Of a DNA stretch of 38,144 nucleotides, positions 1,919-36,942 are shown in pieces. The stretch is from a virus. Position numbers and translations under genes: made by a program. Location of the stretch: IMG/VR virus record IMGVR_UViG_3300030329_000515, positions 1 through 38,144 of that record; one strand, 5' to 3'. How positions within the stretch are numbered: position 1 is the first letter of the stretch; every line of letters begins with the position of its first letter. Below the pieces are notes generated by a model that was given only the letters and a program-made list of their open reading frames with translations, was not told the DNA's origin and made no database searches.

Positions 1919-2187
1919 CAGATAAAGTGGATGAGTTGTTAGATGAACGTGAACAAACTCATGGCCCTGCTGCTGAAACATTTGAAATAGGAATAAACTT
2001 TGTAAATGTCGTCGTTAATTCTGGTGCTGTTACTAGTGAATCACTTAGACCTCATCACTTCGCTATTTTAAATATCCTACACAAAATAGCTCGCATACTT
2101 TGTGGATCTTACAATCCTGATCATTGGGATGACATCGAAGGTTATGCTCGTCTAGGCAAGAAGATACAGGAGAATAATAATGCCTGA
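1915..2187 (+). CDS. DUF6378-family protein
   Basis: A 90-residue protein matching the DUF6378 pattern found in many phages: an N-terminal LLDEREQTHGP box, a middle helix with a KIARIL segment, and a C-terminal DHWDDIEGYARLG block. The biochemical role of the family is not known to me. The conserved Arg, His and Asp residues and its usual place among replication or nucleotide genes suggest a DNA-metabolism role. It is coupled to the helicase gene by ATGA and overlaps the polymerase gene by eight bases, so the three are probably translated together. Confidence 0.75.
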   Translation: MTDKVDELLDEREQTHGPAAETFEIGINFVNVVVNSGAVTSESLRPHHFAILNILHKIARILCGSYNPDHWDDIEGYARLGKKIQENNNA

Positions 2188-4621
2188 AGTAACTGAAGCA
2201 TGGCTTATGCAAGAGTTTACTAAGAGAGCTAAAGCCTGTCAGTTGACTGTTGATTGTTTAGGTTCTGGTAAATTAGATAGTGAGATAGTTATCATCGGGG
2301 AAGCCCCCGGTGAACGTGAAGCTATGATGAAGATGCCACTCGTAGGCGGTAGCGGCAAGTTACTGTGGGATGTACTACAACCATTAGATATATCTCGTAA
2401 AGATTGTTACGTAACTAATGTAGTTAAAAGACAAGTATCATTATCTACTAAGACTGAAGCCCGCAATCCAGTTAAGCGGGTAGAGATAGAGCATTGGGAA
2501 GGGCTACTTGAATGGGAGTTAGAACAACTTCCCAACATTAAGTACATATTAGTACTAGGTAACATGGCATTACACGCATTACTAGGTGAGTCAGGCATAA
2601 CTAACTGGCGTGGCTCAGTCTATGATGTAGCTATAGGAAAGAGTAGGCGACAAGTAAAAGCAATTATAACTAACAACCCTGCTCATGTACTCCGCAACAT
2701 ACAAATGGAGCCGTTCTATAAGTTTGATGTTGCTAAACTCAGGAGAGTTATGGATGGACGATTTAAACGACATGACATTAGAGCAACAATTAACCCATCT
2801 TACGGAGAAGCTATCGAATATCTCGATAGACTTGGTGAAAGTGAACACCCAATTGCATTTGACATTGAGATCATGTCAGGAGAGACAGCTTGCATCGGAT
2901 TTGCCAACAACTCAAGAGAGGGTATATCTATCAATTTTAGATCTGCTAAAGCAAACCGATATAGTCTTGATGAAGAGAGACTGCTCCGTAGAAGAATCGG
3001 ACAGTTACTATCTGATAAAAGATCCAAACTAGTAGCACAGAACGGATCGTTTGACTGTGGTTGGTTATGGTACAAGGACAGAATACATGCACCAAAAGTT
3101 TGGTTTGATACATTACTTGCACACCATACACTTTACCCATCACTCCCGCACAACTTAGGATTCCTTACTGCCCAATACACTGACCATCCTTACTACAAAG
3201 ATGAAGGTAAGTCTTGGCGTGAAGGTGGAAACATCGATCAGTTCTGGGAGTATAATGTTAAGGATTGTTGCATTACTTGGGCGGCTCACGAAAAGTTATT
3301 ACAAGAATTACAATCGCAAAACATGGAAGACTTCTTCTTCTCTCATGTCATGCGACTACAACCCCACCTTGTCCAGATGCAAGTCGGCGGTGTGAAACTT
3401 GATATGGATCTTAAAGAATCTATCGTAGAAAGATTAGATGTAGAACTCCAAGAGAAGTTAAAAGATATACAAGAACAAGCAGCTAAGTTAGCTGGTGAAC
3501 ATTGGCGATCCCTCAATCCCAACTCTCCAAGACAATTAGGACAGTTCTTCTTTGGCGAACTACATCTTGTAGGTCGTGGTAGTAGTACCAACAAGGAGAA
3601 CAGAGACAGGATGAGGAAACATCCGAGAACAAGTGAAGAACAAATCAAGTTCATTGAAGCAATTGATAGTTATAAAGAAGATCATAAGTTCTTCTCTACT
3701 TATGCAACCCAGAAACCTGACCCAGATGGTAGGTTTCGTTGTGAATATAAACAGTTCGGAGTTCAAGCTGCACCGGGAAGATTAAGTTCAAGTGGAACCT
3801 TATGGGGAAGTGGAGGTAACTTACAAAACCAACCACATACTGCTTATCCAATGTTCGTATGTGATGAAGGTTATATGTTATCTTACTTTGACCTTAGACA
3901 AGCGGAGGCAAAAGTTGTCGCGTATTTATGGAATGTGGAAGGACTCATCGAAAATTTCGAGAGGGCCGAAATTGAAGAAGGCTTCGACGTACATCGAGGA
4001 AATGCTTCAAGGATATTCAGATTACCATACGATGAAATACCAGAATCTGACTACGATGACGATGGCAAACGTTCTCTTAGATACCTTGGAAAGCGGTGCG
4101 TACACGGACTTAATTATAGAATGCAAGCTCCCAAACTCGCAACTGTCTGTGGCATTCCAATTAGTCAAGCAGAAGAAGCGTTTGCCTCGTATCATAGAGC
4201 TTTCCCTGAGATCAACAAAGCATGGCAGCGTACAATTTCAACTGTTAGAGAAGAACGTTGCTTATATACACCTCTCGGAAGAAGATTTATCATCCTTGGT
4301 AGAGTAACGGAGGATAGTTTCGATAGTGTTATCGCATTTGTACCTCAATCAACGATTGGTGATAAAGTCAGTAGTGTTATTTATCTTTGTCACGAAGATG
4401 AAGAGTGGCCCGAAGACGCACGTATGCTACTCAATATCCACGATGCCCTCATCGCAATACATAAACCTACTGACAAAGAAACTGTCCAACGACTTATGAA
4501 GAAACACGCGGAAGCTCCTATTACTATTAGAGGTAATCAAGTAAGTATTGGTACTGACTTTAAGGAATCAGTACCAGATGAGAAGGGGATACATAGATGG
4601 TCAACGCTACAAGAAATATAA
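2180..4621 (+). CDS. polA: uracil-DNA glycosylase-like / family A DNA polymerase fusion
   Basis: The 813-residue replicative polymerase. Residues 20-190 resemble a family 4 uracil-DNA glycosylase: GEAPGERE at 40-47, YVTNVVK at 77-83 and LVLGNMAL at 124-131. The usual HPS motif reads NPA at 166-168, and the last two Fe-S Cys positions seem to be lost. Residues 225-365 are a 3'-5' exonuclease with all three motifs: FDIE (D228, E230), N288-D292 and YNVKD (D362). Residues 390-813 are the Pol I fold: motif A with D571 and E576, motif B R634-K638-H642-Y646, and motif C IHDAL (D755). H642 stands at the E. coli Phe762 position, and Ala replaces the Glu of HDE in motif C. The gene overlaps DUF6378 upstream and the next gene downstream. 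Confidence 0.95.
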   Translation: MPEVTEAWLMQEFTKRAKACQLTVDCLGSGKLDSEIVIIGEAPGEREAMMKMPLVGGSGKLLWDVLQPLDISRKDCYVTNVVKRQVSLSTKTEARNPVKRVEIEHWEGLLEWELEQLPNIKYILVLGNMALHALLGESGITNWRGSVYDVAIGKSRRQVKAIITNNPAHVLRNIQMEPFYKFDVAKLRRVMDGRFKRHDIRATINPSYGEAIEYLDRLGESEHPIAFDIEIMSGETACIGFANNSREGISINFRSAKANRYSLDEERLLRRRIGQLLSDKRSKLVAQNGSFDCGWLWYKDRIHAPKVWFDTLLAHHTLYPSLPHNLGFLTAQYTDHPYYKDEGKSWREGGNIDQFWEYNVKDCCITWAAHEKLLQELQSQNMEDFFFSHVMRLQPHLVQMQVGGVKLDMDLKESIVERLDVELQEKLKDIQEQAAKLAGEHWRSLNPNSPRQLGQFFFGELHLVGRGSSTNKENRDRMRKHPRTSEEQIKFIEAIDSYKEDHKFFSTYATQKPDPDGRFRCEYKQFGVQAAPGRLSSSGTLWGSGGNLQNQPHTAYPMFVCDEGYMLSYFDLRQAEAKVVAYLWNVEGLIENFERAEIEEGFDVHRGNASRIFRLPYDEIPESDYDDDGKRSLRYLGKRCVHGLNYRMQAPKLATVCGIPISQAEEAFASYHRAFPEINKAWQRTISTVREERCLYTPLGRRFIILGRVTEDSFDSVIAFVPQSTIGDKVSSVIYLCHEDEEWPEDARMLLNIHDALIAIHKPTDKETVQRLMKKHAEAPITIRGNQVSIGTDFKESVPDEKGIHRWSTLQEI

Positions 4622-5154: not shown

Positions 5155-6349
5155 AGATTCATTCATAGGACAGTACATGAAGTACATGTCCTATGTAGAA
5201 ACAGCAGAGTCATACGATTTTTGGTGTGCAGTTTGGGCAATAGGAGATGCTTGTGGTAGAGGCGTATATGTGGATCGGCCTAACATTCCAGTTTATCTTA
5301 ATTGGTATATTATCTTGGCGGCTGAATCTGGCTCTACAAGAAAATCGACAGCAGTTACGTCGATTGCTGGAGTTGTTGAGACTATTAGACGACCACTTCT
5401 TACAGGTAAAACATCTCCCGAGTCATTGGATCTCTTGCTTCACGAACAAAGCAGGAGCAGCGGGGGAGCTTCCGTCTCTTTCGCGGTATCGGAATTAGTA
5501 ACAACACTTGGCAGAGAAGGTTACATGTCTTCAATGCCGGGACTTTTAACAGACTTATACGACTGTCCATCTATCAGGCGTATTCCCGGAACAATTAAAT
5601 CAGGGGAGATAATACAGAAAGATGTCTTCGTCAACTTCCTATCAGCGTCAACTCCTTCTTGGCTTGTTACTGCGATCAATCCCTCAGTCATTGAAGGAGG
5701 ATTTACGTCCAGAGTTATGTTCGTGGTTGACGATACTAGAAAACGAGATATTCCGTGGCCTACAAGAAGAGAGTCAACAGATGGAGCTAACCTTAGAGGA
5801 CAACTATCAGACCTCCGAACAACTGGAACTTCCATTGGAGCTATCGGAATCTCAGATGGTGGACTCAAAAGATTTACCAAATGGTATAGATCCAAAACAA
5901 ATAGCAATGATCCATTCTTGGGTAGCTTTGAAGCTAGAGAGGATGATCATGTCTTACGCCTCGCAGCCGTACTATCTATCAACGACGGAACCTATGAGCT
6001 TCAGAGTAAACACATCTCAAATGCCATTACTGTTATCAGTAGAGTTAAAAGTGGAGCGAATAAACTCTTCGGAGGAGACTTCAGCCAAAACGCAAGACTA
6101 GCTGATGCTGTTACACGTATGAGAGAGGTATTAATTACTGCTGGATCAGACGGGATTTTGCACTCAGAACTTTTACGCAAGATGCAAAAACGCTTAGATG
6201 CCAAGGAGTTAGGGACGTTAGTTAAAGTACTACATGAATGTAGTATGATACAGATATTCGAGGTAGGCCGAAAGAAATTCTATAGAGCTACAAGAACTAT
6301 AGAAAAGTTTGGAGTTACATCTGAAGTATTAGGTAAGCTAAGTATTTAG
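5129..6349 (+). CDS. DUF3987-like P-loop ATPase, putative replication helicase/primase-associated protein
   Basis: A 406-residue protein. A modified P-loop, ESGSTRKST at about 66-74, has Arg where the canonical Gly precedes the Lys. A SEL triplet (about 130) in a strand-like context may be the Walker B equivalent. Then come GLLTDLYDCP and a strongly DUF3987-like GGFTSRVMFVV segment. The last 70 residues look like a winged helix (GILHSELLRKMQKRLDAKEL). Relatives occur in phage and plasmid replication modules, often beside or fused to primases, but no primase domain is visible here. GGAAAAG precedes ATG 5129. It is the last rightward gene, and its TAG overlaps the stop codon of the opposing 1492-aa gene. 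Confidence 0.7.
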   Translation: MNYKKLVHEDSFIGQYMKYMSYVETAESYDFWCAVWAIGDACGRGVYVDRPNIPVYLNWYIILAAESGSTRKSTAVTSIAGVVETIRRPLLTGKTSPESLDLLLHEQSRSSGGASVSFAVSELVTTLGREGYMSSMPGLLTDLYDCPSIRRIPGTIKSGEIIQKDVFVNFLSASTPSWLVTAINPSVIEGGFTSRVMFVVDDTRKRDIPWPTRRESTDGANLRGQLSDLRTTGTSIGAIGISDGGLKRFTKWYRSKTNSNDPFLGSFEAREDDHVLRLAAVLSINDGTYELQSKHISNAITVISRVKSGANKLFGGDFSQNARLADAVTRMREVLITAGSDGILHSELLRKMQKRLDAKELGTLVKVLHECSMIQIFEVGRKKFYRATRTIEKFGVTSEVLGKLSI

Positions 6350-9300
6350 GGAGTCATCATTCTTTCCAAGAAAGACTTACCTTCTAAGCGGGACTGTGGG
6401 ATATCTCCTTCTAGATTAATTTCTATACTTGGATCACCTAGTCTGCCTTGTAACCACTCGGACATATCTCTTTCCCATTGCTTAACTAAAGCATACTGCT
6501 CATTGTAGATGTCATTTAGTGCAGCATTGTTAGCATCTATCTGACGCTTAACCTGTCCTACACTCTTTCTTCCATCCATTCCAAGAGAGTTGTTATCCTT
6601 ACGAAGAGAAGTTATCTCTTCATTTCCCGGTTGTAATGTCTGAGTAAGATTTCCTACTGATAGTGCTACATGATTCCATGCAACATTATCATTCATCATA
6701 TTAGTAAAACCACTTCCACTAAAGATCCTTCTTAGATCACCTACACCACCTGTCTCTGCCATCTGGCGCATGTTCTGTAGACCTTTAATAGTCTCTTTAA
6801 TTCGGAACATTCTCTTGGCGGCTGGCTGCATAGTAGATAGTTTATGCGTTCTACCAAATATGGAACTACCAAATTTAAGTTGTTGGTTAATGGCTAGACC
6901 AGCGGCTTCTGTTCCTCGTTGGACAGCATTACCGATAGATCCTTTAACTCTGTCATTACGTCCAGCACTGGAAGCGTTCCATACATCTACTAATAACTTT
7001 CCACCACTACCAAATATATCTTGGAATATTGCCCCAATTGTTTCATCCATAGCACCTTGGGCATTAGCCATATCTTTAGAAGAATAACGAGAACCACCAC
7101 CAATAGGCATAGCTTCTGTTAAACTTACATCTCCCTTATCTGGATCGAAAGACAATCCACCTCTTACACTCTGACCTGTGATCGCAGTAAACCCTGCTGC
7201 GAATAATGGAGGCATAGCTATATCTAAAACCCTATTTCCAGCAGCTACTACGTTCCATTGTTCTGGCTTTAAGTCATTGAAACTTCTAGTACCAGAGAAA
7301 TTAAATATTGCGTCCATCGAATCTATAACAAATCCTCTTATTAATCCCCACTCTGGACTAACAGGCCATTGATGTGCTTCCCAAGGAGGTTTGCCCGGAA
7401 TCATTACTATATTAGTAGAGGCACGTTGTTGGGCATTAAACCCTTTCCAGTAATATTCGTTATGAGTCCACGGCCTACCATTCTCATCATAGTAAACTTC
7501 GTCATCGGAACTCATTGTAAAGTTCCACATAACTTCAGCAGCGGTAGGCGCACCAATTAATGCTGCTACTCCAGAAAAGAATCTACGAGGGTTAGCTTTA
7601 ATTGCTCCACCAATTGATGCCCATGATTGGATCATGGCTGGTGCAAATGGAACTGCATTATTAAAGTACTTAGCTGCTGTACTAGATCCAACTCTTCTCA
7701 TGTCGCCAGCTAATTCCTTAGAGATGTCTGCTCCTTCTCTAAGTATTCTTGCTTCATCTGCTTCGGACATTCCTTCGCGTATATTCTTGCGGTAATGTTT
7801 AAGCATTTGTGCATAAGCTGGACCTTCGTGCCATGCATGATTCCATGCTTTCCACATACGCCACAAGTAAGTAGCTTCTCCAAGTCCAACATGATTAACA
7901 AAGTTAGCTTCGTTCTGGTTGAGAGAATCTAGAAAGTTATTTCTATATCCTTGAGCTTCTGCACCTATATACCCAGAGGTTCTACCAGTTTCTTTCTGGG
8001 TTCTAAGACTAAATGAATTTCTATAAGCAGCTTCTAATCTATTTCTTAAATCTATTTGTGCCTGAGTCGGCATCTCTCCGCGAGATATCTTATCTGCGAT
8101 ACGTTGGGCTAGATAGTCGGCTCGTTCTTTGGCCCATCCATCCTTCATTAGTTCCCATGTACCTTTAAGTCCTTCCAACCGACTAATAGCTCCTTCACCA
8201 ATAGCACCGCCAGTAGTCTTAGCTGCACTACGACCAACAATATTACTAGCTATTTGTTGGGAAGAGAAGATATGGGCAACAGGAGCGAACATAGATAATG
8301 GGCCAGTAGTTCCAGCTTTGAATACACTATTCCAATGTCTAAAGAAATGTTCCCCCGGACCAAGGTTACGATTCAAATCTAATGATGCACGAAGACCAGC
8401 ATCAGGAACTTTCCATGCATGAAGCCTTCCATGTTGCATAGTCCATACAACTTCTGGATCGGCATCATCAACCGCCCTAGCTGCTGCTTTTGGGTATGGA
8501 ATAAAGCCTTTCCACTCACCCAAACTATCATTAGTAGTATCGAATGGCCTATAACCTAAATATTGTGGGTCAGCAGTATTTTTTGAACGATCAGCAGCTT
8601 CTGACATTCCTTGTTTTAATTCTTTTAGCCTCTTAATATTACCATCAGCATCCCTACCTACATATTGTAGATCATGTAAATCATCGCTACCTTTACCAGT
8701 AGCATGACGCATTTGAGTAAGAAATTTAAGAGTGTGATGTTGATAAGCATTAATGTTAGAGCCTTCTATAGTACTCTCAGCATATCTACGTAGTGCATCT
8801 AGAGGTAACATAGGTTTATCAACAGACTTACCATGTTCAACTGATCGTTGATGTAATTCTTTAGCGTAATTTAGTTCTTTAGCTTGCCTTGTTTTGAATC
8901 CAGCCATACTTTTTAGACGATCAAGAATTCCTGGCTGGTCTGTACTGGTTATCATAGGAATATAAGCAAGTCTTTGGTCCTTCGCGCCTCTGTTTATAGT
9001 AAACCTATCTCTAAGTTGTTGAGCCTGTTCGACAGTCAAATCTCCTCTATGTACTCTATAATCTAAGAGTGCATCTAGAGTCTGAGAAGTTTTCATACTT
9101 AGTTGTTTAATAGCTGGATCTGCATCAGCCGCAGCTACTATCTTATCAAGCATCTCATCACTTATGCGGCTACCTTGGCCCCATATAATATTCCTAACGC
9201 CCTCTTTCTCTCTTAATCCTGTCCTGATTTCTCGTGTAGTATCCCACATCTTAGTGGTCCCATCACGATTAACCATGTTGGGATTTGCATCTATTTCTAA

Positions 9301-10824
9301 ATCAGTAAGAGTACGTCTTATGTAATCTACATCTTCAGCGTTAGTATCAAGTATGCGTCTAACTTCACTTAGATCAGACTTGGCAAGTGCTTCAGCTAGT
9401 CCGGGAATTTCCCTATTAGCATTTGCTGATCTTTCAAGGACATCAAAAGCTGTAGCCATAGTTCTATTAGTTTGGTCTGTCCTTGCGACTTCACTAAGAT
9501 CATATAGTTGTCGTTGTGTTAAATGATTCTTAGGACCAATCTGTAATACAGGATCAGTTTGGTTAAGTGCTTGATATTCAAGGCGTAATTCTCTAGGAGC
9601 GTGGGTTTTAATTCCACTTCCCTGCCCCAACTCTCCTGTCCAATCGAACTGTCCAGCTATACTCTTCCAATCACTATGAGCAACATTAGTTAAAGTCCGT
9701 ATAGTATCTTCGTCTGCACCTTTAGACCTTAACATTGCTACGGCATGTTGAGTTTCATCAGTCCAATCAGTGTGTAGATATGATTTAGCTAGACTTGCGG
9801 CTTTCTTAGTCTTGTTCAATCCCCCATGTGTTTCATGTATTTCAAGAAACGCTTTGTCCAATCCTGTAGCTTCTGGACTAGAAGAACCAAGAGGACCAGC
9901 CCTATCTGATGCTGCTTGTATTCTTTTGCCAATCGCTCTTTTAGCCGTATAACTTCCAGCTAATGCAGCAAAAACAGTAGCCACGCCCCACGCAGTATCG
10001 GACATAGCTTCTCTTTCATTCTCTTCATGCATAGCCCTTTCAGCTTGGGCTATATTATTAACCATTCCTTTGTTTTGTCCTCTAGATACAGGAGCATCTA
10101 AAGATGTTGGAGGTCTGAAGTCTAAATCATTAGGATCAGTTTGTGGTCTAAAATCTAAATCATCATCACCTTGTCCACCACCTAATCTATCATCACCAAC
10201 TCCACCACTTATAGCTTCCTCAGACCACATAGTAGGAAACTCTGGATCTTGTTGTAATGCTCGAAACCCTTGATCAACAGTTCCACCCATTCCAACTTGT
10301 GCGCCACCTCTTATTACATTTCCTTTAGTTAAATAAGAACCAGTTGGACTCTTAGTAACTTTCATAACAGGAGTAAGCATCCTACCAGCGGCAGCTAACT
10401 TTCCCGGAGCATTAGCTAGTGTTCCTGCTACTCCAATTCCCGGAATAAACGTACCAGTAAGTAGTCTAATTGCTTGGTTTTCTGCTAATACAGGTTCTTT
10501 TATTCCTAGAAATCTATTAACAGCATCACGCCCTGCTTTAGTTATTCCATATGCTCCACGCATGAAAGGTAACTGATTATGTTCCTCAAAACTTTCCATG
10601 AATGGTTTATCAGTAGTTGCTGCTTCGTAACTAGCACCAATCGCTGCGGGAATTAGGCCAGCTAATGAAGGCATACCAGTAGCTACATCAGTAACACCAG
10701 CAATACCTTGTCTAGCTGTTACTGATAAATCTGTGCCTCTACCCTTTTCTTTAGGAGCAGATGGTTTCTCTCCTTTAGGGATAGTAGCTGGATCTCTAAA
10801 GTCTAGGTCAGGTAATTCAGTCAT
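6346..10824 (-). CDS. giant internal virion/ejection protein candidate (1492 aa)
   Basis: The largest gene and the last in the late operon. The protein is rich in Ala, Gly, Arg and Asp. Its N-terminal 300 residues have low complexity and three copies of the short motif DLDFR (residues 6-10, 222-226 and 233-237). They also include hydrophobic segments at about 120-150 and 278-291. The middle is largely helical and charged. The C-terminal third has Trp/Tyr-rich stretches and further possible membrane-active segments. I see no lytic transglycosylase motif. Position at the end of the structural operon, after three other Ala/Gly-rich proteins, matches the ejection proteins (such as T7 gp16 or P22 gp16/gp20) that cross the envelope. 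This is inference from context. ATG 10824 overlaps the previous stop by four bases. Confidence 0.7.
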   Translation of the reverse strand: MTELPDLDFRDPATIPKGEKPSAPKEKGRGTDLSVTARQGIAGVTDVATGMPSLAGLIPAAIGASYEAATTDKPFMESFEEHNQLPFMRGAYGITKAGRDAVNRFLGIKEPVLAENQAIRLLTGTFIPGIGVAGTLANAPGKLAAAGRMLTPVMKVTKSPTGSYLTKGNVIRGGAQVGMGGTVDQGFRALQQDPEFPTMWSEEAISGGVGDDRLGGGQGDDDLDFRPQTDPNDLDFRPPTSLDAPVSRGQNKGMVNNIAQAERAMHEENEREAMSDTAWGVATVFAALAGSYTAKRAIGKRIQAASDRAGPLGSSSPEATGLDKAFLEIHETHGGLNKTKKAASLAKSYLHTDWTDETQHAVAMLRSKGADEDTIRTLTNVAHSDWKSIAGQFDWTGELGQGSGIKTHAPRELRLEYQALNQTDPVLQIGPKNHLTQRQLYDLSEVARTDQTNRTMATAFDVLERSANANREIPGLAEALAKSDLSEVRRILDTNAEDVDYIRRTLTDLEIDANPNMVNRDGTTKMWDTTREIRTGLREKEGVRNIIWGQGSRISDEMLDKIVAAADADPAIKQLSMKTSQTLDALLDYRVHRGDLTVEQAQQLRDRFTINRGAKDQRLAYIPMITSTDQPGILDRLKSMAGFKTRQAKELNYAKELHQRSVEHGKSVDKPMLPLDALRRYAESTIEGSNINAYQHHTLKFLTQMRHATGKGSDDLHDLQYVGRDADGNIKRLKELKQGMSEAADRSKNTADPQYLGYRPFDTTNDSLGEWKGFIPYPKAAARAVDDADPEVVWTMQHGRLHAWKVPDAGLRASLDLNRNLGPGEHFFRHWNSVFKAGTTGPLSMFAPVAHIFSSQQIASNIVGRSAAKTTGGAIGEGAISRLEGLKGTWELMKDGWAKERADYLAQRIADKISRGEMPTQAQIDLRNRLEAAYRNSFSLRTQKETGRTSGYIGAEAQGYRNNFLDSLNQNEANFVNHVGLGEATYLWRMWKAWNHAWHEGPAYAQMLKHYRKNIREGMSEADEARILREGADISKELAGDMRRVGSSTAAKYFNNAVPFAPAMIQSWASIGGAIKANPRRFFSGVAALIGAPTAAEVMWNFTMSSDDEVYYDENGRPWTHNEYYWKGFNAQQRASTNIVMIPGKPPWEAHQWPVSPEWGLIRGFVIDSMDAIFNFSGTRSFNDLKPEQWNVVAAGNRVLDIAMPPLFAAGFTAITGQSVRGGLSFDPDKGDVSLTEAMPIGGGSRYSSKDMANAQGAMDETIGAIFQDIFGSGGKLLVDVWNASSAGRNDRVKGSIGNAVQRGTEAAGLAINQQLKFGSSIFGRTHKLSTMQPAAKRMFRIKETIKGLQNMRQMAETGGVGDLRRIFSGSGFTNMMNDNVAWNHVALSVGNLTQTLQPGNEEITSLRKDNNSLGMDGRKSVGQVKRQIDANNAALNDIYNEQYALVKQWERDMSEWLQGRLGDPSIEINLEGDIPQSRLEGKSFLERMMTP

Positions 10825-26417: not shown

Positions 26418-27377
26418 TTACGAGTTAATAAGAACTGCATGTGTACGGAAAGCCTTCCACAAGCACCACTGACCTTGCCAAACAATACGGCGACCATGAG
26501 CATCAATCGTCCAAGGAGCGACTAACTCTTTCACCTTCATGTTGACATGCTTCAGAATGTGCAAGCGAATGTACTTGCTGTTAATGAAGTAAGCCTTATT
26601 AACAGGGCAATCTTCATCATAAAGCATTGGAATTGCTTGGTGTTTTACGCCAGCAAATCCCAAGTCCATCATCTTCTTACCAGAATTAGATTCCGACAAG
26701 TTGATAACAACTTTATCCCGTACTGCTGTACGATAGTGCCTATAAAGATTTCTACCGCAAAGGATCAAGTCAGGCTTGTCACCTTTAAGCGTTAAATCCA
26801 TAAGCATATCATCAAAGGCTTCTTCAATGTTCGTTGAATCCAAGTTACCATTGAAGTCATAAGCCGATGTACGCCACTGGCTTTCATTAGCACGATTAAT
26901 GTTACCAACCGTACCAGTTGTCGGATCATCTGGAATTAGAGTAGTAATACCATTTGGGTCCGTACCAGCAGAAGAACCGTAAAGATAAGCACTGAACTTT
27001 TCTTTAATTGACTCTTCCAAGACATCAATCTTGGCTTTCATCAACTTAAAGATTTCAGCCGTACCACGGTTCTCATCTTCTTCTTGGTCGGAGATTACAA
27101 CAGAACCAGCAACACGCGACCAGTTATAAGTAACTGTGTCGAATTCGCTAGTTTGAGCAATCGGTAATTCATCATAGTATTCGTATGATGAAATGTTCGG
27201 GTTACGTCCCAACGTCAGTGGGTTCGTAATTTCGTGACCACCATCTTCAAATTCCACCCGATTGTTCGCAAAAGCCCAAGCCATAAGAGCATTAGACTTA
27301 ATAGAAGCCATAATCAGCTTCTTACGAGAACGAGTCAGTGTGGAGTTCAAGACAGTTGCAATTGGAGTACTTGCCAT
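26418..27377 (-). CDS. major capsid protein
   Basis: A 319-residue protein with HK97-type capsid features. An N-terminal helical arm is followed by RVEFEDGGHEITNPL (E-loop-like strands), the long spine-like helix MKAKIDVLEESIKEKFSAYL (about 128-147), and P- and A-domain strands such as DLILCGRNLYRHYRTAV and a terminal WTIDAHGRRIVWQGQW. It lies directly after the scaffold, in the usual portal-scaffold-capsid order. A strong TAGGAG precedes the start, fitting high expression. Confidence 0.85.
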   Translation of the reverse strand: MASTPIATVLNSTLTRSRKKLIMASIKSNALMAWAFANNRVEFEDGGHEITNPLTLGRNPNISSYEYYDELPIAQTSEFDTVTYNWSRVAGSVVISDQEEDENRGTAEIFKLMKAKIDVLEESIKEKFSAYLYGSSAGTDPNGITTLIPDDPTTGTVGNINRANESQWRTSAYDFNGNLDSTNIEEAFDDMLMDLTLKGDKPDLILCGRNLYRHYRTAVRDKVVINLSESNSGKKMMDLGFAGVKHQAIPMLYDEDCPVNKAYFINSKYIRLHILKHVNMKVKELVAPWTIDAHGRRIVWQGQWCLWKAFRTHAVLINS

Positions 27378-34471: not shown

Positions 34472-35451
34472 TATCTTATTGGTTGGCCCCGTTGATTTAC
34501 ACGCCGAGGTTGTGGAGCCGCAGTAGTAGTAGGTCTGACTTTCTTAGTGCCTACTCGTTCTGGAGCTTGTGCTGCTTCACCACCCGGAGGATTCCTAGAA
34601 CTATAAGTAGCTGTTGATAATGCTCCCGGCACTGTTGCCGCAGCTTGCCTTGCTTTATCACCCGGAAATCCCATAGGAATACTTCTTACTCTTCCTCTAG
34701 GACCAATTAGTCCGTGCTTCATAATGTTCTGTATAGCTTGCCACATTCTGGGGGCGTGGGCTGGCGCACCAGCAAATATAGTTGGAAGTCCCGGAAGAGC
34801 ATCAAGTGGCGCACCTATAAATCTATTTACATCTGCTAGAAATCCTTCACCATACTTAATGTCATCGTAATCTTCGCCTCTTGCTTCAGCAGCTTGTCTA
34901 TCAGCTGATCCACCACCAATGCCTAAAGCACTTCTTAGAAATTCTTTGTTTACTGAAGACCAGAAGCCTTCTTCTTCTGGAGCTTCTGGTTTAAGAGGAG
35001 GTACAGGAAATTGAGGTGCAGTTATATTATCATCTTCAGTCATGGGATCACCCTGACCTTGAGCAGACATTTGAGCAAACTCAGGAATGTTAGCTAAGAC
35101 TTCTCCAGCCATACCAGTTTCTTCTTCAATAGCTGCATCTTGTGCATCAATATCAGCTTGAATACCTTTTGGCAGAGTTGGGCCACCTACCATACCTATT
35201 TGTTGTGGCATAAAAGTTCCACCAGTACTTCTTCCAGTTGCTAATGCAGTTGGATCGTGTGGAACATTAGGATCAAACTCCTCTTCTGGTCCCATACTTG
35301 GATCCCAAGCTCTTCCGGGAGTATAAGATGTGCCAAATAAATTAGATATGGCCTGACTCATTGCCGGGGCCATATCTCCAGTTCGGGGATCAGGGGCTGG
35401 ATTGCCTTGATGATCTACATACTGCCCTTGAGCATTATATCCAGCAGCCAT
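34471..35451 (-). CDS. unknown 326-aa protein, start of late operon
   Basis: Not recognised. It is Pro/Gly/Ala-rich with a Gly/Gln/Pro-rich disordered N-terminus (1-60), an acidic middle (about 100-165, with QGDPMTEDDN) and a helical region with amphipathic segments (about 165-250, for example NKEFLRSALGIGGG). A basic Pro/Arg-rich tail (about 285-326) ends it. Lying ahead of the terminase genes, it may be a virion component or packaging accessory. Both ends overlap neighbours as TAATG. Confidence 0.52.
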   Translation of the reverse strand: MAAGYNAQGQYVDHQGNPAPDPRTGDMAPAMSQAISNLFGTSYTPGRAWDPSMGPEEEFDPNVPHDPTALATGRSTGGTFMPQQIGMVGGPTLPKGIQADIDAQDAAIEEETGMAGEVLANIPEFAQMSAQGQGDPMTEDDNITAPQFPVPPLKPEAPEEEGFWSSVNKEFLRSALGIGGGSADRQAAEARGEDYDDIKYGEGFLADVNRFIGAPLDALPGLPTIFAGAPAHAPRMWQAIQNIMKHGLIGPRGRVRSIPMGFPGDKARQAAATVPGALSTATYSSRNPPGGEAAQAPERVGTKKVRPTTTAAPQPRRVNQRGQPIR

Positions 35452-35918
35452 TAGACATTCTCGCCTTTACCACCGCCACCGTTTCCAGAAGCATCAGTAG
35501 GATAAGTAGATGGCGCACGATTAGCACGACTTCCAGAAGGAATAATTTCCGTCTGAATTGCAGTTACATCAGCAGCCGTAACAGCCCGAGCCGTGTTCGC
35601 ACTTGCGTCATCTTTGTCACTATTAATAGTTAAGTCCATAGTTTCGTTAGCAGTTGTACCTCTAACTCCACCCATATTGTTCGCATTAACATTAACAGTG
35701 TGATCAACTTGCGTAGTAGTGACACTAGCAGTAGAAGAAGGAGAAGAATCAGTTAATAGTGTACTAAGTATCTCTCCGTAATTTCTCATACCACGTTTAC
35801 GCAACATTCTCATTAGATGATATCTATTAGGAGAACGAGCGTTTAGAAATTCATAAGTAGCGTTGGAGTCACCGGGGCCGTAACTGGACGACTCCCAAAA
35901 TTCTGCACTAGTAGCCAT
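35451..35918 (-). CDS. first late-operon protein, unknown (155 aa)
   Basis: A 155-residue protein starting MATSAEFW. ATG 35918 is preferred over 35933 because AAAGGA ends six bases upstream. Residues 20-50 are basic and helical (NRYHLMRMLRKRGMRNYGEI). The rest is Thr/Ser/Asn/Asp-rich with a Gly-rich C-terminal end (GNGGGGKG). This helical basic segment could bind nucleic acid, but no family is recognisable. As the first gene of the leftward transcript it lies next to the hairpin region, and its ribosome site is clear. Confidence 0.55.
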   Translation of the reverse strand: MATSAEFWESSSYGPGDSNATYEFLNARSPNRYHLMRMLRKRGMRNYGEILSTLLTDSSPSSTASVTTTQVDHTVNVNANNMGGVRGTTANETMDLTINSDKDDASANTARAVTAADVTAIQTEIIPSGSRANRAPSTYPTDASGNGGGGKGENV

Positions 35919-36038
35919 AACTCTTCCTTTCATTGTTTTGTTAGTGGCAATTAGTTATTATTATATGTATGTTCCGTCCCTGTGTTTGTTGTTAAATATC
36001 ATAAACACAATCATCCGTCAAATCTATTGCTAAAATAC
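35919..36038 (-). promoter_or_regulatory. leader with candidate late promoter (TATAAT, leftward)
   Basis: On the leftward strand a perfect TATAAT lies at 35965-35960, about 42 bases before the start of the first late gene. The hexamer 17 bases upstream matches TTGACA at only three positions, so a standard sigma-70 promoter is weak here and a phage-specific promoter or another factor may be involved. A further inverted repeat, TGTGTTT at 35981-35987 with AAACACA at 36003-36009, lies just upstream. No other leftward promoter is obvious for about 29 kb. Confidence 0.35.
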
Positions 36039-36401
36039 CGGGCAACGCAGTTGCCCGAAATCGTCCTCTGTTCTTCCCTTATATAGCGTTATTTCGCACA
36101 CAATTCCCCTAATTCGCATTTGGGGGGATGACTGATCTTGTTTAACGGATGGTGAACCATTCTGTTAACCCACGTTTTGGAAACGCGGGGGGAGTTTCAC
36201 CATCAATAGCTACGGGGTAGCTATTAGCCTACTAGTAATGATACTAGTAGGCATTAATTCTCTTACGAGAATGATTAAGGGAGATCTTATCCCCCTTAAT
36301 AATCCCCCTGCCCAACTGATGTCAGTTGGATCACACCAACGTGCCGTTGGATCCATAAGAAGAAAGAGTAATAGACACACTCCTTCGTCGTGTGACTTAT
36401 T
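36039..36401. promoter_or_regulatory. tandem hairpin array in the divergent intergenic region
   Basis: A non-coding stretch between the two transcription units. Hairpins (stem lengths in bp): 36039-36057 (8); 36149-36203 (outer 8, plus an inner hairpin at 36169-36189 with 8 of 9 paired); 36205-36225 (9); 36227-36252 (11, loop ATGA); 36257-36272 (6); 36274-36300 (8 plus 3); 36312-36329 (7); 36336-36350 (6); 36370-36401 (5 plus outer pairs). Loops are short, mostly 2-4 bases. From 36149 to 36350 nearly every base can be paired. No U-tracts follow, so these are not ordinary terminators, and no ribosome site or ORF of normal character is present. Role unknown. Confidence 0.85.
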
Positions 36402-36509
36402 TCCGCTTCGCGTACAGTTAAACCGTGTGGATAGTTGGTTGCGTACTTTCTTCTGTTATTGGGTATAGATGGAATCATTGGGAGTCCATCGCAACATTAG
36501 GAGGTCCAC
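36402..36509 (+). promoter_or_regulatory. leader before the 129-aa gene: weak promoter, DnaA-like box, start-codon hairpin
   Basis: Contains TATAGA at 36464-36469, with TTGCGT 19 bases upstream as a poor -35. CTATCCACA on the leftward strand (36434-36426) is one mismatch from a DnaA box; single near-matches are expected by chance in 38 kb. AGGAGG at 36499-36504 lies five bases before ATG 36510. GTCCAT at 36484-36489 pairs with ATGGAC at 36510-36515, so the start codon can be held in a stem with the ribosome site in its loop. All of these are candidates. Confidence 0.4.
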
Positions 36510-36899
36510 ATGGACACTACATCTAATATCAACGTTGAAGATTACGGCTTAACCATCAGCATCATCTCTTGCGATGAAGGTTACACTTTCACCTTCACCA
36601 AGGAAGCCACAGCCACTACGAAAGGTTGGGCTAACTCATTCACCCGTACATACGGAGTCTCTGAGTTAGACGTTGATGCTGATGGCAAGTCGCGAGTCTA
36701 TCCCAAAACGAAAGCCGCAGCTAAAGCAGCCGCCGAGCGATTCCGCGTATGGTTCAATCTCGAACTCCACGCGATTAAAACTAAGGCTGCAAAGCAACGC
36801 TTCATCCCATCACAACTCGAGGATATGCAGCTAGTAACTAGCGCAAAGGTCGAGCATAAAGATCCAATGCTCGTATCAATCCTCAACGCTAACTTCTAA
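36510..36899 (+). CDS. unknown early protein (129 aa) in its own transcription unit
   Basis: A 129-residue protein with no recognised family. N-terminal half: strands (YGLTISIISCDEGYTFTFT) and a Trp/Arg turn. Middle: an Ala/Lys helix (KTKAAAKAAAERFRVWF). C-terminal: charged helix and short strands. It looks more GC-rich by eye than the small genes around it. A near-perfect AGGAGG precedes the start, and a strong intrinsic terminator follows 11 bases after the stop, so it is probably transcribed as one abundant message. A nucleic-acid-binding or host-takeover role is possible but not shown by any motif. Confidence 0.75.
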   Translation: MDTTSNINVEDYGLTISIISCDEGYTFTFTKEATATTKGWANSFTRTYGVSELDVDADGKSRVYPKTKAAAKAAAERFRVWFNLELHAIKTKAAKQRFIPSQLEDMQLVTSAKVEHKDPMLVSILNANF

Positions 36900-36910
36900 C
36901 ATCTATCAAG

Positions 36911-36942
36911 GGGAGCCTCCCACGCGGAGGTTCCCTTTTTTT
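36911..36942 (+). terminator. strong rho-independent terminator
   Basis: A 10-bp GC-rich stem (36911-36920 with 36926-36935, one G-U pair) closes on the five-base loop CACGC. A run of seven T follows at 36936-36942. It lies 11 bases after the stop of the 129-aa gene and would end its transcript, separating it from the small genes to the right. Confidence 0.93.

Follow-up and report, generated by a model that had tools for sequence, protein, structure and literature searches.

Across the phage group examined here, the divergent intergenic region of the window (the whole 38,144-base stretch that was analysed) preserves a single hairpin, at 36039-36057 beside the predicted late promoter, which alone clearly shows the covariation sought for the entire array of hairpins, whereas the chain at 36226-36401 is not conserved in 28 relatives. 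Our preferred reading, in which confidence as a whole falls somewhat short of even, is that the divergent region would be where an uncultured phage group controls its early and late genes, and would contain a supercoil-sensitive DNA hairpin that tunes the late promoter or the start of replication, a function that we infer. It is based upon covariation of the stem, a loop rule resembling that of phage N4, the hairpin's single copy at the late promoter, its recurrence in two loci (L197 and L247) outside the defining set, and an accompanying pair of C-run motifs found in all 29 loci.

Genome setting and relatives

The source record covers part of the genome of a double-stranded DNA tailed phage that encodes terminase and portal. 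Gene calls and relatives agree with the originally predicted layout of late genes running leftward and early genes rightward, the former being a virion set (portal, TerL, lysozyme) and the latter a replication set in which one protein joins a family A DNA polymerase to a uracil-DNA glycosylase domain. The features framing the region are as follows.

2180-4621, + strand: DNA polymerase A, with the uracil-DNA glycosylase domain N-terminal
35451..35933, - strand: first late gene, 160 aa, the query used for collecting relatives
35993..36021, - strand: predicted late promoter TTGACG-N17-TATTTA with a TG extension, predicted to drive the leftward virion-gene operon
36039..36057, + strand: conserved hairpin CGGGCAAC-GCA-GTTGCCCG, loop c(GNA)g, 17 bp upstream of the late -35
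36510..36899, + strand: first early gene in the window, 129 aa

Relatives gathered with the 160-aa gene amounted to 27 and then 34 loci, and TerL was later used as well. Conservation was assessed over 28 relatives from metagenome contigs and the window, 29 loci of which several are near-duplicates, leaving 19 that differ in their hairpin rows. Bigger relatives reach 43,860 bases and carry some 10 kb of small early genes that are mostly absent from the source record. Terminase, capsid and polymerase proteins match phage records only at below 60% identity, phage records hold no DNA similarity to the divergent region, and a search with the capsid protein found no bacterial genome carrying one. 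The 129-aa protein has no PHROG or Pfam match, and its gene has one relative, L029, located on the same contig as L002; a typical intrinsic terminator follows it at 36908-36938 (+). Protein conservation within the group is uneven: the major-capsid-like protein at 26418-27377 (-) is ~91-92% identical between relatives whose other proteins mostly share 50-70%, and the largest late protein (1492 aa, 6346-10824, -) shows only 26-32% identity among relatives.

The conserved hairpin and the late promoter

Covariation in the stem is pronounced, with 96% of cells paired, six of the eight pairs changed on both sides, and none of 500 shuffles scoring as high. Double changes occupy 18 cells as opposed to three in shuffles, and shifting the pairing partner abolishes the signal. 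Chimeras that pair the 5' half from one locus with the 3' half from a second lose ~3.5-4 kcal/mol (native versus chimeric z=-8 to -9). The loop is equally constrained, reading c(GNA)g or c(GNNA)g on the + strand, with one case of GNNNA and the closing C-G always kept, a rule that rests on the unforced alignment, since some hairpin tables were picked by C-G...A-G and so had the loop fixed by construction. GCA is found in the majority, alongside GGA, GAA, GCTA, GTTA, GAAA, GTAA, GTGA and GAATA, and fitting the hairpin in L016, L022 and L049 required mismatches or a longer loop. An asymmetric loop of varying length with a closing C-G argues for a folded single strand. Three pairs in the stem are of the G-U type, all of them G-U on the + strand and none reversed, a pattern compatible with that strand folding as RNA or as DNA. 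Predicted DNA stability is approximately equal for both strands under standard parameters, which may not credit GNA loops; such GNA and GNNA loops are generally extra-stable in DNA. The hairpin lacks the U-tract of an intrinsic terminator, being followed by the tails TATTTTAG, TAATATAG or GAATATCA, or by none, as in L011, where the -35 is directly adjacent.

Each genome carries the hairpin as a single copy, always at the late promoter. In seven of eight contigs scanned no other hairpin with a stem of 7 bp or more had a loop of this kind (expectation, 0.2 per 38 kb), the eighth, G001, having a mismatch in the stem. Two loci that were not used for defining the features repeat the arrangement. 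L197 combines the same hairpin with the promoter TTGACT-N16-TAAAAT and a C-run match. In L247, whose TerL is 58% identical, the stem differs and the loop is retained; the promoter reads TTGACA-N17-TATAAT, motif 1 of the C-run pair is present with motif 2 degenerate, and the gene start reads like that of the 160-aa gene. In more distant relatives the region was mostly not included or the features were not seen. A scan of bacterial genomes for the combined hairpin and promoter pattern returned a single match, which lies within coding sequence and was taken as chance.

The neighbouring promoter is of the sigma-70 type and directed leftward, with TTGACR-N17 and a TA-rich -10 at this place in nearly all relatives. 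In all but a few loci the hairpin lies 0-31 bp upstream of the -35, and nowhere more than 76 bp, a variation that makes a fixed direct contact with RNA polymerase unlikely. On the + strand no promoter is conserved among relatives. The late leader (35934-35992) contains a conserved GTCACTGACAAAACAAC block in the window and relatives, and many relatives have a TGACACACA motif in this leader with an inverted copy across the late promoter. A k-mer comparison of early regions gave no strong common promoter motif; recurrent CTTCTGTGTTG(GG)TG and CTGGCCGGT precede early genes on the coding strand in L003, L004, L005, L014 and L049, and are possibly early promoter or leader elements.

The bipartite C-run motif

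To the right of the conserved hairpin lie two further elements common to the group.

36122..36138, - strand: C-run motif 2, AGATCAGTCATCCCCCC, in 29 of 29 loci, at fixed spacing to motif 1
36175..36194, - strand: C-run motif 1, CTCCCCCCGCGTTTCCAAAA, in 29 of 29 loci

Every locus reads, on the - strand, CTCCCCC(C)G...AAAA and then AGATCNNYCRTCNCCCCC or a close variant, with the C-run ends 62-66 bp apart and 44-47 variable bases between the first C-run and AGATCNNYCRTCNCCCCC. CCCCCC occurs only twice in the record, one occurrence being that in motif 2. The chimera test gave no clear covariation for these motifs, which points to a motif at the level of sequence, probably bound by a protein. With a simple pattern the pair was located in 12 of 14 records, at a single place in each, and AGGTC variants of the motif in G007 and G008 were missed; two extra matches look unrelated. 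When the collection was scanned with a pattern comprising both halves, convincing matches were confined to this phage group. A locus has between two and four C-run...AAAA repeats, and L022, L024, L049 and L054 carry additional copies.

The hairpin chain is largely lineage-specific

All inverted repeats named in the original prediction are present: perfect ones of 8 bp (36039-36057), 9 bp (36205-36225) and 11 bp (36227-36252), and a further one of 8 bp (36312-36329). Arms of 15 nt with 87% complementarity lie at 36271-36303, and a long-range 9-bp stem pairs 36148-36156 with 36196-36204. The proposed comparison with dinucleotide-shuffled copies likewise came out in favour of structure, on both strands and for RNA or DNA, with z from about -7 to -9. 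The + strand at 36110-36420 folds with z=-7.3 and the - strand at 36030-36420 with z=-8.0, no shuffle equalling the native sequence in either case, and folding as DNA gives z=-8.6 for 36130-36360. In a scan of all 38,144 bases the 200-base windows at 36101 and 36201 stood out, relative to their G+C, as the most structured of the record, and did so on both strands. A scan for promoters and terminators flagged two hairpins as weakly terminator-like, 36058-36038 (-) with the tail TATTTTAGCA and 36227-36252 (+), and found no real U-tract after either, as had been asserted. The small open reading frames over the region (e.g., 76 aa, 36238-36468) are merely mechanical, in line with the claim that no gene explains it, and an Rfam search found no family for the region, whether at the gathering score or at E<=1.

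The components of the chain are distributed among relatives as listed below.

36148..36204: long-range stem GATGGTGAA/TTCACCATC around motif 1, in the window and L002, absent in L007
36205..36252: two perfect hairpins of 9 and 11 bp, the first also in L002, the second not
36271..36329, - strand: two-hairpin module, common to L007, L045 and partly L019
36336..36401: other small hairpins, window-specific, replaced in L002 and different in L007

In L002, the closest relative whose region can be read, the flanks match exactly or almost exactly and the 129-aa gene survives at 96% identity, but a ~190-base stretch with most of the hairpins right of 36226 is swapped for ~65 other bases. This, together with the lack of a conserved + strand promoter, disfavours the originally suggested structured 5' leader for the 129-aa gene, which L002 retains although most of 36226-36420 is replaced. 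L007 has a different set of hairpins, with only the 36271-36329 module in common with the window. L045 and partly L019 carry diverged versions of this module, with compensatory changes in seven of 19 predicted pairs, a count drawn from only four sequences, and its + strand arm AGATCTTATCCCCCTTAATAATCCCCC resembles motif 2 in inverted form. Strong folding was considered as a general trait of the interval and rejected: over the 29 loci the early-side interval averages z of -0.6 and -1.2 on the two strands, hardly more structure than in shuffles, and besides the window only L007, L019, L049 and partly L002 are clearly structured. As a component of the same joint and somewhat tentative reading, the chain may be a mosaic, fast-changing addition rather than a conserved working part, a caution that a conspicuous row of hairpins in a single genome may not be the conserved element.

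One arm of the module also takes part in a wider resemblance. The sequence GGGGATT followed by a hairpin NNYAAGGGG...CCCCTTRNN occurs at 36271-36303 (-) and in many unrelated viral contigs (L111-L172), some of which are Zot-carrying filamentous phages. The pattern was found in 64 stretches compared with 23 for a permuted control, and its outer stem pairs in 31/52 versus 3/18 in the control; an upstream hairpin (15/52 versus 2/18) was not convincing. The match in the window may be a coincidence, since that arm also resembles inverted motif 2. In L111 and L155 the hairpin is near reverse-transcriptase-like genes, which perhaps belong to diversity-generating retroelements.

Possible functions of the conserved hairpin

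The mechanism we favour would begin with negative supercoiling of injected or replicating DNA, which would extrude the conserved hairpin as DNA in the manner of N4. The extruded form, the torsion it absorbs, or a protein bound to it would then set the timing of late promoter firing or of replication start, and the C-run pair would serve as a site for a phage DNA-binding protein or initiator. If so, supercoiling could act as a timer for late genes or replication.

The same elements can be arranged as a replication origin, in which the C-runs would bind an initiator, an AT-rich stretch would melt, and the conserved hairpin would be a site of single-strand priming or loading. This is an unlikely reading, although it draws upon the single copy, the divergent genes, and the C-run...AAAA repeats and AT-rich stretches nearby in many relatives. 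An iteron-type origin, for comparison, combines repeated initiator motifs with a neighbouring AT-rich unwinding element. In the GC-skew check proposed for an origin the cumulative minimum does fall near 36-37 kb, but skew also tracks gene orientation; the source record is missing several kb of the early region, and no initiator was identified.

Alternatively, the conserved hairpin could act as RNA in an early rightward transcript, as an antitermination or stability element resembling boxB or put. The G-U pairs confined to the + strand and the several GNRA loops (GAAA, GTAA, GTGA) are compatible with this, and some relatives have a promoter-like + strand match within the late leader, from which a transcript could form the same hairpin. 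Such a promoter is not conserved, however, and of the six tetraloop cases three (GCTA twice, GTTA) violate the GNRA rule of RNA. No boxA-like element was noticed by eye, and in L021 and L055 only 78-81 bp separate the hairpin from the late start codon, a space shared with the late promoter. An RNA function of this kind is rather unlikely.

It is very unlikely that the hairpin serves a dimeric regulator of the late promoter as its operator in duplex DNA. The sequence is a near-perfect palindrome close to the -35, with changes that are symmetrical between relatives, but its centre is asymmetric (C-G-N-A-G), the spacer varies from 3 to 5 and the helical phase to the promoter is variable, and the non-palindromic G/A of a loop 3 to 5 long is not explained by a dimer bound to duplex. 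Least probable by far is a pac/cos packaging site formed by the bipartite C-run motif for the terminase encoded ~1.5-3 kb downstream, for while its one copy, rigid spacing and position upstream of TerS and TerL would suit one, many contigs pass through the motif and end at unrelated places rather than clustering there, which disfavours the fixed terminus put forward in the original prediction.

Comparison with known systems

Filamentous phages of the M13 type have intergenic hairpins A-E in an almost continuous row, and the window resembles them in its near-continuous row within one intergenic region. It differs in belonging to a double-stranded DNA tailed phage in which no rolling-circle initiator was noticed, and in that the chain is not conserved in relatives. 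The boxB element of lambda nut and the put sites of HK022 are short RNA hairpins with a GNRA-like loop near divergent early and late genes. The conserved hairpin is likewise short, with a GNRA-like loop and divergent early and late genes nearby, but here half of the tetraloop cases are non-GNRA, no boxA was noticed, and no conserved promoter places the hairpin in a leader RNA.

A close parallel to a supercoil-sensitive DNA element is offered by phage N4, in which small hairpins are extruded from the DNA in connection with the virion RNA polymerase, extrusion and stability require a C:G closing pair with a 5' G and a 3' A in the loop, and polymerase recognition depends on a purine at -11 and a G at -8 (PMC4496689). 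Like the N4 early-promoter hairpins, the conserved hairpin has a short GC-rich stem, a C:G closing pair and a G...A loop on one strand, and in the unforced alignment it exhibits the closing pair and loop bases needed for N4 extrusion. Unlike them, its loop centre is mostly C in place of the -11 purine, the base beside the closing C is mostly A in place of the -8 G, tetraloops occur, and it is situated upstream of a sigma-70-type late promoter. No RNA polymerase of family PF00940 was found in 14 records, a search in which the control genomes were silent too, and the 1492-aa late protein had no polymerase match in PHROGs, Pfam or PDB; a very divergent enzyme, or one encoded in the missing part of the genome, could have escaped notice. 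With no RNA polymerase gene of known type recognised and the -11 purine and -8 G not kept, the conserved hairpin is not an N4-type promoter. It is conceivable, if somewhat doubtful, that in this phage group an extruded DNA hairpin makes a sigma-70 late promoter or an origin sensitive to topology, apparently without a virion RNA polymerase; were this true, hairpin extrusion as a means of phage gene control would reach beyond the N4 type.
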